Positions 13,934-36,425 of a stretch of DNA of 36,425 bases are shown piece by piece. Made by a program: the position numbers and the translations under genes. Numbering within the stretch: position 1 is the stretch's first letter; the number at the start of each line of letters is the position of its first letter. The notes under the pieces are model-generated. The model made no database searches. It had not been told where the DNA came from and worked only from the letters and a program-made list of their open reading frames with translations. The stretch lies in the NCBI RefSeq assembly GCF_012912135.1, contig NZ_QMEB01000022.1, forward strand, positions 4,481 to 40,905. Direction: 5' to 3'. This DNA comes from Brasilonema bromeliae SPC951. Its GTDB lineage: Bacteria; Cyanobacteriota; Cyanobacteriia; Cyanobacteriales; Nostocaceae.

Positions 13934-14350
13934 ACTAACCGCTTCTCGCCCCCGCCCCTAATCCCCAACGCCCTTCGGGTATGTCCTGAGCCCTATGGCT
14001 AACGCCACGGCTCCGTGCCGTTCGCGAAGCGTCTCCGAAGGAGATACGGACACGCTACGCGTTCGCCTCTGGCGTGCGCTTGCGCGAACGCAGTCGCCTA
14101 CGGAGGGAGACCCTCCCGCAGCCGGTTGTCGTCACCGTCATTCGCGCTGTCTCACCAGTCGCCACAACGGGGGCGTGCGCTTTGCGCTTACGCTCCTTGG
14201 CGGTACGAAGGAAACCCTCAAAGCAACGCCCTTATTCACCGCACGGGGCTAGCTCCTCCGTAGGGCGTGCTGCAGGCATAGGACTTCTCGTGCTTAGTGG
14301 AGCTTGCGCGCTTCCGAGGAAACCGGAGCAACAGACAACTTCTGGCACAT
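13934..14350. repeat. Cluster of GC-rich palindromic repeats
   Basis: Dense short palindromes, including TTCGCGAA, GTCTCCGAAGGAGATAC, GCTTGCGCGAACGC and GGAGGGAGACCCTCC (14103-14117). Base composition differs sharply from the AT-rich DNA that follows. Short frames are open in several phases at once, as expected of repeat DNA rather than genes. It is related to the modules at 2224, 21081 and 36380. Confidence 0.7.
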
Positions 14351-18424: not shown

Positions 18425-19414
18425 CTAACCACCAATTTGTGACATGGTGCGAGTATAAACACCAGTCTCTGTACCTGAATAACGTTGCTTAAAGTTAATA
18501 TCTGGCTTAATTGCCAACAAGTCCCTAACCTGCTCCCGCAATTTGGCAGTGCTGATACCTGTACGCAGAGCAGTTTTTAAGTCAATTTGATTAGTTTCAT
18601 TTAATAAACAGGGACGTAACCAACCATCGGCAGAAAGGCGCATCCGGTTGCAGCGATCGCAAAAACACTCCGACATCTGACTGATAAATCCCAGTGTCCC
18701 TTTCGCTCCCGGAATCTGAAACACATCAGCGGGTCCATTACCACGAACTTGGGATTCTGTCAATCCCCAACGCTGGCGGATACGTTGGCGTAACTCTTCT
18801 GAAGGTATCCAACTGCGATCGCCAAACAACTGCGAATTACCAATTGGCATAAACTCAATAAATCGCACGTGCCATTGTTTATCAATCGTCAACGCCGCGA
18901 GATCCAGAACTTCGTCGTCGTTGACATCGGGAATGACGACCACATTTAACTTCAGCGGGTCAAATCCTACGCGATAAGCCGCGTGAATCCCCTGCCAAAC
19001 TTGTTCCCAGCGTGGACGACCGCGATTATTAATAATTTGGTCAAAGGTGTCGGGATCAAGGGAATCTAGGCTAATATTGACTCGTCGCAAACCAGCATCG
19101 TACAGGTTTTGCGCCATTGGAGCGAGTAAAAAGCCGTTTGTTGTCATCGAGAGGTCTTGGGTTTGGGGGAGAGATGCTATTGCTTTCACCAACTCCACCA
19201 CACGGGGACGCAGTAAAGGTTCTCCCCCAGTCAAACGAAATCGGGTAAATCCAACGGGGATAAAGACTTCTTCTATGAGGGTTAGCAGTTCCTTATCAGT
19301 CAACAACTGCTGCTTGAGGATATAGTCAAGTTCCGCTCCCTCTGGCATACAGTATTGACAACGGAAGTTACAGCGGTCTATTAAACTTATGCGGAGGTAA
19401 TCTACCTGGTTCAT
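18425..19414 (-). CDS. moaA: GTP 3',8-cyclase MoaA (molybdenum cofactor synthesis)
   Basis: 329 residues. This radical-SAM enzyme makes 3',8-cyclo-GTP, the first step of molybdopterin synthesis. The first 4Fe-4S cluster motif is CNFRCQYC (Cys15, Cys19, Cys22). The SAM-binding GGEPLLRP and the C-terminal second cluster ([23 protein letters not shown]) are present. The protein ends in Gly-Gly, the double-glycine tail needed for activity in this family. The N-terminus is shorter than in E. coli but starts just before the radical-SAM strand as in other cyanobacteria. No other moa gene is adjacent, and there is no evident ribosome site before ATG 19414. Confidence 0.96.
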
Positions 19415-19526
19415 GGTTTTATAGAATTATCTGAACGGCTATATACACAGAATAATATCTTTGTCAAGCAACACAAGCTTGCTTTACGAATTTTATTTAT
19501 CTTATGGGGGTTCGGGGGCTATAAGA

Positions 19527-19557
19527 CCGCGCGCGTAATCTTTGATTACGCGCGCGG
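19527..19557. repeat. Perfect 14-bp hairpin resembling a TnpB-element right-end hairpin
   Basis: CCGCGCGCGTAATC (19527-19540), loop TTT, GATTACGCGCGCGG (19544-19557). The apical TAATCTTTGATT (19536-19547) is identical to 21064-21075 in the right end of the TnpB element, while the supporting stems are entirely different. It may be the remnant right end of a second element. Confidence 0.6.
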
Positions 19558-19601
19558 ATACATGGACCTCCGCGCTTGTCGATTCCCGGAGCCTGATCCT
19601 G

Positions 19602-19701
19602 AAAAAATGGGCAGGCTTAATAAGAATGAGTATTCGACTACGACGACAGATCAACAGACGTTCGCGTAGCGTCTCCTCCGGAGACAGCCTGCCCATTTTT
19701 T
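19602..19701. repeat. Inverted-repeat module upstream of tnpB
   Basis: Perfect 16-bp arms AAAAAATGGGCAGGCT (19602-19617) and AGCCTGCCCATTTTTT (19686-19701) enclose 68 bases. That interior holds a smaller palindromic repeat (TTCGCGTAGCGTCTCC, then TCCGGAGA). The right arm ends in seven Ts, so the forward transcript could terminate here. It could be a terminator, a miniature element or part of the left end. Confidence 0.6.
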
Positions 19702-19772
19702 TGCGGCAAATTCGACCCCTCGATGGGGATGAGGCAAGCATTTACTGGGTGCGATTCTTTTAGTAAAAGCGC

Positions 19773-19778
19773 TATAAT
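19773..19778 (+). promoter_or_regulatory. -10 box just upstream of tnpB
   Basis: TATAAT ends seven bases before the first ATG of tnpB (19785). If used, transcription would start at or inside the first codons, giving a leaderless message or a start at the ATG at 19794. No good -35 is visible. Confidence 0.35.
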
Positions 19779-19784
19779 CATTGT

Positions 19785-21044
19785 ATGTTAATCATGAACT
19801 ATCGTTATCGAATTTATCCCGACGCCACTCAACAAACCGTTTTGTTTGAGTGGATGGAGATTTCTCGTAATGCTTATAACTATGCGTTACGAGAAATCAA
19901 GGATTGGTGCAATAGCCGGAAATGCATGATTGACCGATGCTCTTTAGAACAAGAATATATCTTACCAGCAGACTTGAAATTCCCAAGTGAAGTGCAACAG
20001 TTGAATGCGTTGCCACGTGCAAAGAAAGAATTCCCAAGGCTGGGCGAGGTACCTTCTCAGGTTTTACAGCAAGCTATCAAACAACTACACCGCGCTTGGG
20101 AATGTTTTACCGAGCGCGGTTTTGGCTTTCCGCGATTTAAAAAATATGGGCAGCTTAAATCTTTGCTGTTTCCGCAATTTAAAGAAAATCCTGTTACTGG
20201 AAAGCATTTAAAATTACCGAAAATCGGTTTGATTTTTATTAACCTGCACCGTCCGATTCCTGATGGATTTGATGTAAAGCAGGTCCGTATTTTTAAAAAG
20301 GCCGATAGGTGGTATGCATCTGTCTGCATTCAATGTAATGTTAGTGTTCCTGACTCAAAACCACATGGTCACCCTGTTGGTGTAGACGTAGGGTTAGAAA
20401 AGTTTTTAGCAACTAGCGATGGTGATCTCGTAAAGCCGCCTAGATTTTTTCAAACAATGCAAAGCAAGCTGAAATTGCTGCAACGCAGATTATCTAGAAA
20501 ACAAAAGCGGTCGAAAAACTACGAGAAACAACGTCTAAAAGTTGCAAGAATGCATCACACAATAGACAATACTCGAAAAGATTTCCATTTCAAACAAGCT
20601 CATGCTCTTTGCGACACCGGAGATATGATCTTCATGGAAGATCTAGATTACTCTAAGATGGCAAAAGGAATGCTGGGCAAGCATATGCTTGATGCAGGAT
20701 TTGGTCAATTCCGAACTATTACCAAGTATATATGTTGGAAACGAGGAAAATTTTTTGCACAGGTTGATTCTAGGGGAACTTCTCAAGAGTGTCCAGAGTG
20801 TGGTGCAGTTACAAAAAAAGACTTGAAAACTAGAGTACATCACTGTTTGGTTTGTGGATATACCACAGACAGGGATGTCGCTAGTGGTCAAGTCATCAGA
20901 AATCGAGGCATAGCCTCAATTAGTACGCCAGGGCTTGGCGGAACGAAAACTGCCTGCGCAGTCGATCTACCGGGGACGAAGATATCTTCGTCTAGGCAAG
21001 TGACGAAATCTCGCAAGAGAAAAACCAGGAATGCTAAGTTGTGA
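19785..21044 (+). CDS. tnpB: TnpB RNA-guided nuclease of a solo IS200/IS605-type element
   Basis: 419 residues, a full-length TnpB. These proteins use a right-end RNA (omega RNA) to cut DNA next to a short motif and help maintain their element. The RuvC triad is complete: Asp201 (GVDVGLEKF), Glu285 (MEDLDYSKM), Asp364 (TDRDVASGQ). The zinc-finger cysteines Cys336, Cys339, Cys354 and Cys357 are present. The C-terminus is rich in Lys and Arg. No tnpA lies nearby, so this is an IS1341-like solo element that cannot move without help. The frame is intact, but the right-end hairpin just downstream is interrupted. Start either at ATG 19785 or ATG 19794. Confidence 0.95.
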   Translation: MLIMNYRYRIYPDATQQTVLFEWMEISRNAYNYALREIKDWCNSRKCMIDRCSLEQEYILPADLKFPSEVQQLNALPRAKKEFPRLGEVPSQVLQQAIKQLHRAWECFTERGFGFPRFKKYGQLKSLLFPQFKENPVTGKHLKLPKIGLIFINLHRPIPDGFDVKQVRIFKKADRWYASVCIQCNVSVPDSKPHGHPVGVDVGLEKFLATSDGDLVKPPRFFQTMQSKLKLLQRRLSRKQKRSKNYEKQRLKVARMHHTIDNTRKDFHFKQAHALCDTGDMIFMEDLDYSKMAKGMLGKHMLDAGFGQFRTITKYICWKRGKFFAQVDSRGTSQECPECGAVTKKDLKTRVHHCLVCGYTTDRDVASGQVIRNRGIASISTPGLGGTKTACAVDLPGTKISSSRQVTKSRKRKTRNAKL

Positions 21045-21175
21045 GACTTAGAAGCCCCCACCATAATCTTTGATTTGGTGAACCCAGTACTGAAGGAGGG
21101 TTTCCCTCACGCTTGTTCTGGTGTTAGCCGTCAGGCGTGCCGTAGGCATACCCGAAGGGTGGGGGAGGATGTCAC
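21045..21175 (+). mobile_element. Right end / omega-RNA 3' region of the TnpB element, split by an insertion
   Basis: CCCCCACCA (21055-21063), loop TAATCTTTGATT (21064-21075), TGGTG (21076-21080), then 81 foreign bases, then GGGG and GAGGATGTCAC ending at about 21175. Removing 21081-21161 restores a perfect 9-bp stem CCCCCACCA/TGGTGGGGG, the kind of terminal hairpin expected at a TnpB right end. The exact element boundary after GTCAC is an inference. Confidence 0.65.
21081..21161. repeat. 81-bp palindromic repeat inserted in the TnpB right end
   Basis: It contains the core GGAGGGTTTCCCTC (21095-21108), shared exactly with 2266-2279 and 36390-36403, and GTCAGGCGTGCCGTAGGC-type sequence as in other modules here. 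GGTG occurs at both borders (21077-21080 and 21158-21161), a possible short target duplication. Confidence 0.65.
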
Positions 21176-21416
21176 ATTCTTTTAAGGTAACGTGTACCAA
21201 ATATATTTGCGAAATAGCAATCCTAATAACCTGAGCAGCATCTTCACTGGTGCGCCAGGGCGAGTCCGCCGCAATATGTCCTTTGGCAATTCCTGTCATG
21301 GTGATTGGGCGGCTGGCGGTGGATCGAACTGGCAAGGGTGAGTGCCGACACCGCCAGCAATGTTGCAGGAAGTATTAGCGTTGCCTAAAGGTTTCAAGTC
21401 ATGACACTATCTTTAG
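21176..21416 (-). pseudogene. Possible gene remnant next to the TnpB element
   Basis: On the reverse strand a signal-peptide-like stretch (LILPATLLAVSALTLASS, about 21383-21330) and, in another frame just downstream, RPITMTGIAKGHIAADSPWR and SEDAAQVIRIAISQIYLVHV (about 21312-21180) look protein-like. They would need a frame change to join. The second frame then runs into the TnpB right end. I do not recognise a family. It may be a decayed exported protein or chance. Confidence 0.3.
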
Positions 21417-35284: not shown

Positions 35285-36367
35285 ATGCAATTGAAAATCA
35301 GTGCATCCCGACTACCCATCCCACCACTACTGTTGTTGATCGCCCCCTTTTTCTTATGGGGTACAGCAATGGTGGCGATGAAAGGAGTGATACCCCACAC
35401 AACACCGTTATTTATGGCGGGAGTGCGTTTGATACCGGCTGGGGTACTTATTCTGATAGCAGCAGCATTGATGGGTAGACCTTTGCCCAAGGGTTGGGTA
35501 GCGTGGTTGTGGATTGCTTTATTTGCCTTGGTGGATGGAACGCTGTTTCAAGGCTTTTTAGCAGAGGGATTGCTCAGAACAAGTGCTGGATTGGGATCTG
35601 TGATGATTGACTCTCAGCCCTTGGCTGTGGCATTGCTATCTTTGTGGTTATTCCAAGAACATATCGGTTTTTGGGGATGGTTGGGACTAGGAATAGGAGT
35701 CACAGGCATTAGTTTAATTGGCTTGCCGGATCAGTGGATTCTCCATTTTCTCAACTCAGGCACGATTGTAGAGACATTGTCTACAGCATCAATACAACAA
35801 TTGTTTGCCAGTGGCGAGTGGTTGATGCTTCTAGCAGCGCTGAGTATGGCAGTGGGAACAGTATTGATCCGGTTCGTTTGTCGCCATGCTGATCCTGTGA
35901 TGGCTACAGGATGGCATATGATTTTGGGTGGCTTGCCATTGTGGGGAATTTCATCAACTGTAGAATCTGGGCAGTTGCAGAACATTGTCCCGTCTGACTG
36001 GTTTGCACTCTTGTACGCGACGGTGTTTGGTAGTGCGATCGCCTACGCATTATTTTTCTACTTTGCCTCTAGCGGCAATCTCACCAGTCTCAGTTCCCTC
36101 ACCTTCCTCACACCCATATTCGCATTGTTATTTGGTAATTTGTTACTTCAAGAAGTTCTCAGTCCGTTGCAGTGGGTAGGAGTCAGCCTGACTTTAGTTA
36201 GCATCTATCTCATCAACCAGCGCGAAACTCTATCAGGGTTAAGCAAGAAAGTTGCTACAAGTGAAAAAACTATGACACAGCAACAACAAGTTTTAGAAGC
36301 GTCTGCAAAGACGATAAACAAAGTTACCTTACCTGTGAGAAAATCTGAATCAGAGATGTTGCCTTAA
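35285..36367 (+). CDS. DMT-superfamily EamA transporter
   Basis: 360 residues with about ten membrane segments in two EamA repeats: LLLLIAPFFLWGTAMVAMKG and FMAGVRLIPAGVLILIAAALMG in the first, SMAVGTVLIRFVCRH and LTFLTPIFALLFGNLLLQE in the second. A hydrophilic tail follows from about 315 (TSEKTMTQQQQVLEASAK). Family members export amino acids and other metabolites; the substrate cannot be read here. A spacer of about 30 residues between the repeats (FLNSGTIVETLSTASIQQLF) is longer than usual. ATG 35285 has no clear ribosome site. It is a different DMT branch from the coiled-coil protein at 11984. Confidence 0.92.
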   Translation: MQLKISASRLPIPPLLLLIAPFFLWGTAMVAMKGVIPHTTPLFMAGVRLIPAGVLILIAAALMGRPLPKGWVAWLWIALFALVDGTLFQGFLAEGLLRTSAGLGSVMIDSQPLAVALLSLWLFQEHIGFWGWLGLGIGVTGISLIGLPDQWILHFLNSGTIVETLSTASIQQLFASGEWLMLLAALSMAVGTVLIRFVCRHADPVMATGWHMILGGLPLWGISSTVESGQLQNIVPSDWFALLYATVFGSAIAYALFFYFASSGNLTSLSSLTFLTPIFALLFGNLLLQEVLSPLQWVGVSLTLVSIYLINQRETLSGLSKKVATSEKTMTQQQQVLEASAKTINKVTLPVRKSESEMLP

Positions 36368-36379
36368 ATAAGGTGAGAC

Positions 36380-36425
36380 CAGCGCTGCGGGAGGGTTTCC
36401 CTCCGCAGGCGACTGGCGAACCCGG
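36380..36425. repeat. Palindromic repeat at the window end
   Basis: CTGCGGGAGGG, loop TTT, CCCTCCGCAG form a hairpin with a one-base bulge. The core GGAGGGTTTCCCTC (36390-36403) is identical to 2266-2279 and 21095-21108. The repeat may continue past the window. Confidence 0.7.

Follow-up and report, generated by a model that had tools for sequence, protein, structure and literature searches.

The window, a 36,425-nucleotide stretch of which contig C362 of a 6.26-Mb cyanobacterial draft genome (G000, completeness about 90%) is the source, contains a TnpB-only element whose terminal right-end hairpin holds an 81-bp palindromic repeat (Table 1). The source genome is congeneric with Scytonema tolypothrichoides VB-61278 (G001), and flank comparison with the six other genomes of the genus set the ends of the element, as all six carry the empty site: it reads TTTTATTTAT^ATTCTTTTAAG in five of them and has diverged to TTGTATTTAT^GTTCTTTTACG in G006. 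Target duplication is absent in comparison with all six empty sites and the element sits directly 3' of its pentanucleotide, as expected of IS200/IS605 elements. A subterminal hairpin is present at both ends, recognised on the left by reading the sequence and on the right by stem covariation. The tip TAATCTTTGATT is common to the left-end (19527-19557) and right-end (21055-21080) hairpins, on different stems. No tnpA was found inside the element (19501-21175), while eight Y1_Tnp matches lie elsewhere in G000, one of them with stops; Rfam gave no match at E<=1 in 19400-21300. Membership in the IS200/IS605 TnpB-only group is thus supported. The presumed guide immediately downstream is identical to the empty site of G001.

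The TnpB protein itself is intact, as the original prediction had stated: the reading frame is complete, the OrfB_IS605 and zinc-finger/TNB domains and the RuvC residues are all present, and the product matches the solved TnpB chains 8h1j and 8bf8. In a single alignment, against the designed nuclease 9yyg, the catalytic motifs gvDvg, mEdl and tDrd and the cysteines of CPECG..CLVCG were retained. A viral contig (L245) encodes a 75% relative, and a strict hairpin-reading script read no hairpin there.

Table 1. Features of the TnpB-only element and its surroundings, in window coordinates.
Feature	Coordinates	Strand	Basis and remarks
TTTAT, pentanucleotide 5' of the element, putative TAM / target	19496..19500	+	Empty-site comparison
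TnpB-only IS200/IS605-type element	19501..21175	+	1675 bp including the 81-bp module; empty site in 6/6 congeners
Left-end hairpin CCGCGCGCGTAATC-TTT-GATTACGCGCGCGG	19527..19557	+	Uninterrupted, read from the sequence; tip similar to right end
tnpB, 419 aa	19785..21044	+	Pfam OrfB_IS605, Cas12f1-like_TNB, HTH_OrfB_IS605
GTGAC, candidate 5' pseudoknot half	21000..21004	+	Pairs with GUCAC in the MFE fold; putative role by comparison with ISDra2 (PMC10097598)
Hairpin CTAAGT-TGTGAG-ACTTAG, directly upstream of the terminal hairpin	21034..21051	+	RNA folds
Terminal hairpin, 5' arm CCCCCACCA	21055..21063	+	Sequence reading, covariation
First TGGTG copy, 3' arm of the apical hairpin	21076..21080	+	Its last three bases (21078-21080) open the module
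81-bp dispersed palindromic module GTGAACCCAG...CCCGAAGG	21078..21158	+	Family copies, nested copies
Second copy GGTGGGGG, 3' arm of the rebuilt basal stem	21158..21165	+	RNA folds; its first G also ends the module
GTCAC, 3' terminus of the element, candidate 3' pseudoknot half	21171..21175	+	Empty site, RNA fold
Presumed guide ATTCTTTTAAGGTAAC	21176..21191	+	16 nt by ISDra2 analogy; putative guide role

At the right end, CCCCCACCA, TAATCTTTGATT and TGGTG are followed by the insert and then by GGGGGAGGATGTCAC, which ends at 21175. Deleting 81 nt, at 21081-21161 or equivalently at 21078-21158, gives a 9-bp stem CCCCCACCA/TGGTGGGGG. Both the interruption of the hairpin by a palindromic repeat and the restoration of the stem by its removal had been proposed in the original prediction, and both are confirmed, the former by uninterrupted relatives as well as by reading the sequence; the coordinates then given (21081-21161) describe the same insert, shifted, and are best written 21078-21158. 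The 81 bases are not a fixed part of this kind of right end: relatives are usually uninterrupted, and the window's exact stem occurs insert-free in three loci, L133 (Scytonema NIES-4073), L165 and L202. The 13-pair hairpin is 93.0% paired in 22 distinct uninterrupted homologues, with two-sided changes at 10 of its 13 pairs; the covariation score was reached by none of 500 shuffles, and slid versions were only 32-48% paired. This alignment comprised 22 of 25 distinct 44-nt hairpins, and leaving out L160, which is almost the same as L148, along with L147 and L167, whose tips are irregular and of other kinds, slightly favours the stem. Because of the exact uninterrupted matches and the covariation in homologues, the hairpin is not a product of chance.

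To read right ends more widely, a right-end motif was located in 70 of 80 loci; among the ten others, six contigs end within 18 nt and the motif is absent from four. The distance from the GAAGC-like motif to the end was at most 60 nt in 68 of the 70 loci (loose script, rows partly inspected), and the two longer spans were 152 nt in L062, which by its matching coordinates is the G001 locus, and 65 nt in L113, a longer hairpin. A stricter script that demanded six unbroken pairs accepted 37 of 81 loci; L113, L136 and L139 were judged misplaced, and setting misplacements aside left 33 uninterrupted hairpins and one expanded (L062), in a count that overlooks evident hairpins containing a mismatch (L067, for one). 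When the hairpin with its module (21046-21175) was searched, no phage match was obtained and two plasmid records matched part of it.

The insert is a dispersed repeat, as had been suspected. The pattern GTGARNCCAG...TACCCGAAGGG found 35 copies in the seven genomes of the genus, and a reversed control pattern had 0 matches in the same genomes. Full-length copies are mostly 80-89 bp and number 19 in G000 versus 1-6 in each of the six congeners, which suggests a recent burst of modules in G000. The core palindrome was found in 13 of 59 relatives, all seven genomes of the genus included, in a looser count in which the control pattern also matches. Two further partial copies lie in the window itself (14091-14122 and 36363-36415). 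In L015, L226 and L235, three separate places, the module lies within the palindrome GTAGAGACGTTGCAT^GCAACGTCTCTAC, which defines its ends cleanly, and in L227, L229 and L232 it lies within GTGAACA-type heptamer-like repeats. From these nested copies the unit can be written as GTGARNCC...CCCGAAGG, inserted 5' of a G without target duplication. Dispersed, multicopy, nested and group-confined (features typical of SDR repeats, discussed below), the module appears to be a small non-coding mobile repeat enriched in the genus.

What is new beyond the single locus is that sister copies carry different modules at the same nucleotide and in the same orientation. Two more copies of the subfamily were found in G000, on C69 (83% protein identity) and C151 (74%), and the draft may hold more. 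The C69 copy lies 3' of GTTAT and the C151 copy, like the window's, 3' of TTTAT. Their modules are 108 and 57 bp long and occupy the same nucleotide, orientation and hairpin as the 81 bp of the window; they vary in both length and core, and the dispersed variants that they look like are not the same. With 41 GGT sites available over both strands of the window's element, three modules at one of them are unlikely without a preference. The site of the C151 copy is also empty in six of six congeners (the right junction aligns in all six; the left flank has diverged). The module-bearing C69 copy is common to a second species, S. tolypothrichoides VB-61278, with an identical 158-nt right-end segment. 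In the C151 copy (L003) the left-end hairpin looks split too, by a AATTCAAAATTC-type repeat between CCCACGCC and GCGTGGG.

Among 29 GGAGGATGTCAC sites in the seven genomes of the genus, nine read as right ends of the subfamily by their upstream sequence: C362, C69, C151 and the G001 ortholog of C69 are expanded, and L172, L174, L176, L185 and L195 are not. L184, a member of another subfamily in G000, has an uninterrupted right-end hairpin. On a protein tree built from the 71 candidate rows (of 92) that had 330 or more aligned residues, the six expanded copies (C362, C69, C151, the G001 ortholog, L079 and L083) amount to five gains or losses, five being forced by well-supported branches; in this count unreadable right ends were taken as not expanded, for example L104, the sister of L079. 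C362 and C69 are separated only by L061, which lacks the module, and for these two alone a gain plus a loss could suffice. The Nostoc copies and C151 occupy other parts of the tree, and the nearest readable relatives of C151 (L073/G006_C122 and L202) lack the module. The Nostoc copies, L079 and L083 of Nostoc sp. CCCryo 231-06, have the loop of the terminal hairpin enlarged by about 26 nt by a different palindromic repeat; the core of this loop insert has 14 copies in its own Nostoc genome (control 0). Pattern searches for expanded hairpins matched 15 of 388 genomes of the order and 3 of 217 of the family. Most matches were two successive GAAGCC motifs, or unrelated, and since the gap limits blinded both patterns to C362 and C69, the matches give no rate; by the strings printed in the order-genome search, G000:C151, G262:C234, G153:C7 and G205:C96 look truly expanded. 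The finding is more general than the window locus suggested: cyanobacterial mini-elements have repeatedly enlarged TnpB right ends, with sequence precision. A search of the open-licence literature found no paper describing a repeat inserted into a TnpB guide RNA.

How the hairpin could survive such an insertion is suggested by its predicted fold. The mobile repeat has entered the 3' arm of the terminal right-end hairpin, at TTTG^GTGGGGG. The module starts with GTG and its target is G^GTG, so that the target's GGTG equals the module start and one GGTG stands on each side of the insert; this duplication allows 8 bp at the base of the hairpin, CCCCCACC/GGTGGGGG, to be rebuilt beneath the insert. 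Folded as RNA, the right end indeed pairs CCCCCACC with GGTGGGGG through the distal GGTG copy, with the module hairpins above, so that the module would form extra hairpins in the former apical part. The mean probability of the basal stem was 0.94-0.98 in eight of nine window lengths for C362 (0.08 at 270 nt) and 0.69-0.99 in seven of eight for C69 (0.06 at 300 nt). For C151 it was 0.49-0.97 in six windows up to 210 nt and 0.00-0.33 in four longer ones, at 230-300 nt; among the shorter windows the stem was weak at 110 nt. The folding proposed in the original prediction gave a divided answer, with the basal stem re-forming in most windows and lost or weak in some. Shuffled inserts also permit the lower stem: its lower five pairs averaged 0.63 (0.97 with the real insert), and its probability exceeded 0.9 for 50 of 100 shuffled inserts. 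The fold is therefore no evidence of selection, and closure is largely a property of the site.

Other parts of the right end are left as they were. The insert alters neither the hairpin upstream nor the candidate pseudoknot, and the spacing from hairpin to guide stays at 10 nt. The pseudoknot, GTGAC at 21000-21004 with the terminal GTCAC, is a candidate by analogy with ISDra2, in which, according to PMC10097598, positions -5 to -3 pair with -103 to -105; the CAAGTGnCGAAATC motif is present in C69 and C151 too. When folded as ssDNA, the element's right end keeps the apical hairpin by way of the proximal copy, which may be relevant for TnpA. The insertion would lengthen the guide RNA by about 81 nt and give it a bulky apical extension; the RNA is presumably made, processed, active and still able to load TnpB.

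The module family has other addresses as well. A different TnpB subfamily carries modules with these same ends at GGAG^GTATCG, about 120-175 nt before the right end: in L181 and L191 (G006) they measure 54 bp and add 18 codons, in frame, to the open frame close to its C-terminal end, and in L188 (G001) 58 bp, not a multiple of three; the module is missing from L177 and L200. The C-terminal domain of ISDra2 TnpB is disordered and dispensable for cleavage, as stated in PMC10097598. On plasmid pNOS3756_1 of Nostoc NIES-3756 (L246:2005-2090), a solo right-end-like tip CACAATCTCTGATTTG^GTGG carries a 57-bp module at the same site, and no annotated TnpB gene is present in the 4-kb stretch. A general preference of the module for hairpins was considered and rejected: in the module-site set (33 rows from 35 copies, with three copies absent and one copy entered as two overlapping rows), cross-site pairing rose above that of shuffled flanks, at p<=0.05, in only three of 33 sites.

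Why the same nucleotide is hit again and again can be explained in two further ways. The module may simply recognise a string like TTTGATTTG^GTG that TnpB right ends merely happen to carry, an explanation to which we give not quite an even chance. The string with its module occurs away from annotated TnpB in pNOS3756_1 and in L241, and the scarcity of sites that exceed shuffled-flank pairing also fits a target of sequence rather than structure; however, modules with the same ends occupy a different string in L181, L191 and L188, and many copies lie within unrelated repeats. A sequence target would in any case bear only on the recurrence of the site, and it can hold together with the tolerated expansion that we favour below. 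Alternatively, instead of repeated insertion, all expanded copies could descend from one ancestral insertion that other module copies then diversified or gene-converted. The identical nucleotide and orientation, and the proximity of C362 and C69 across a lone module-free copy, would fit such a history, which is nevertheless improbable given the position of C151 among module-free relatives, the likeness of the three inserts to different dispersed variants and the changes forced on the tree. On the favoured reading, modules landed at this site more than once.

The original prediction had left open whether the TnpB is frozen by the repeat or the scaffold expansion is tolerated. On balance, we think it somewhat probable that the right end has undergone a recurrent, tolerated scaffold expansion by a genus-enriched mini-element rather than a freezing of TnpB, its guide-RNA function being putative. 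Tolerance is favoured because the modules of three subfamily copies share one nucleotide position yet differ in length, because the duplicated GGTG lets the 8-bp stem re-form, so that the stem is not necessarily split, and because the C69 module copy is shared by two species with no change across the right-end segment; the intact catalytic motifs, the uninterrupted homologous hairpins and the strong stem covariation also speak for it. The expectation that the insertion must inactivate the guide RNA gains no support. In two engineering studies, deletion of the flexible guide-RNA stem 3b of ISDra2 (replaced by a GAAA linker) raised editing (PMC10097598), and GAAA in place of part of the terminal stem-loop bettered activity (PMC10821889), so that tips can be lost with equal or better activity and scaffold tips can vary in length; against tolerance, the basal stem is lost or weak in some folding windows, one right-end hairpin of G000 (L184, of another subfamily) is not expanded, and the cited engineering shortened tips rather than lengthening them. 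Upper stem 4 of ISDra2 contacts the WED domain, according to PMC10097598, and if the present hairpin is the counterpart of stem 4, the insert could hinder binding.

Alternatively, the module may break the hairpin and abolish guide-RNA function and/or recognition by TnpA, the intact tnpB being merely young. The C362 and C151 insertions are indeed young, their sites being empty in all six congeners each, so an intact reading frame need not mean selection; the module may also postdate transposition, in keeping with the excess of full-length modules in G000. Between C69 and its VB-61278 ortholog, the tnpB genes show five differences, all nonsynonymous (dS 0), and this single, uninformative pair gives no sign of purifying selection on a module-bearing TnpB. 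By segment, the two differ at 5/1260 positions in tnpB, 0/158 in the right end, 2/116 in the left-end part, 6/293 upstream (flank and left end mixed) and 28/1244 in the downstream flank. We nevertheless regard a frozen element as unlikely: the basal stem can be regenerated in predicted folds, each of the three subfamily copies found has its module in the identical position, and one of them persists, module included, in two species.

Should the enlarged RNAs be active, they would mark a point of the scaffold near the guide that tolerates 57-108 extra nucleotides, with a bearing on scaffold design and on the growth of guide RNAs on the way to Cas12, and one mobile element would sit inside another's RNA and leave it unbroken. 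If they are inactive, the insertions would instead represent a repeated natural way to silence TnpB. A broader generalisation, that TnpB right-end hairpins are recurrent landing sites for mini-elements whose ends rebuild the stem, yielding active scaffold extensions of about 26-108 nt with the mini-elements perhaps as passengers of a moving TnpB element, is for now doubtful.

The window's element, which we take to be akin to IS1341-like TnpB-only elements, resembles the IS200/IS605 TnpB-only elements and ISDra2 in its TnpB domains, its pentanucleotide-adjacent insertion without target duplication, its hairpins near both ends and a right end that closes the scaffold before the guide. Unlike them, it has a terminal hairpin enlarged by an unrelated mobile repeat. 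The module in turn recalls the SDR families, small dispersed repeats of filamentous cyanobacteria that reportedly measure 21-27 nt: both are small, palindromic, dispersed, self-nested, found in heptamer repeats and largely confined to one cyanobacterial group, whereas the module is mostly 80-89 bp long and forms several hairpins. STRR-type repeats lengthen the RNase P RNA of heterocystous cyanobacteria, as tandem heptamers in rnpB. There, as here, a genomic repeat extends a peripheral hairpin of an RNA, which is functional in the case of rnpB; the window's repeat differs in being an inserted palindrome in a transposon guide RNA rather than a run of tandem heptamers.
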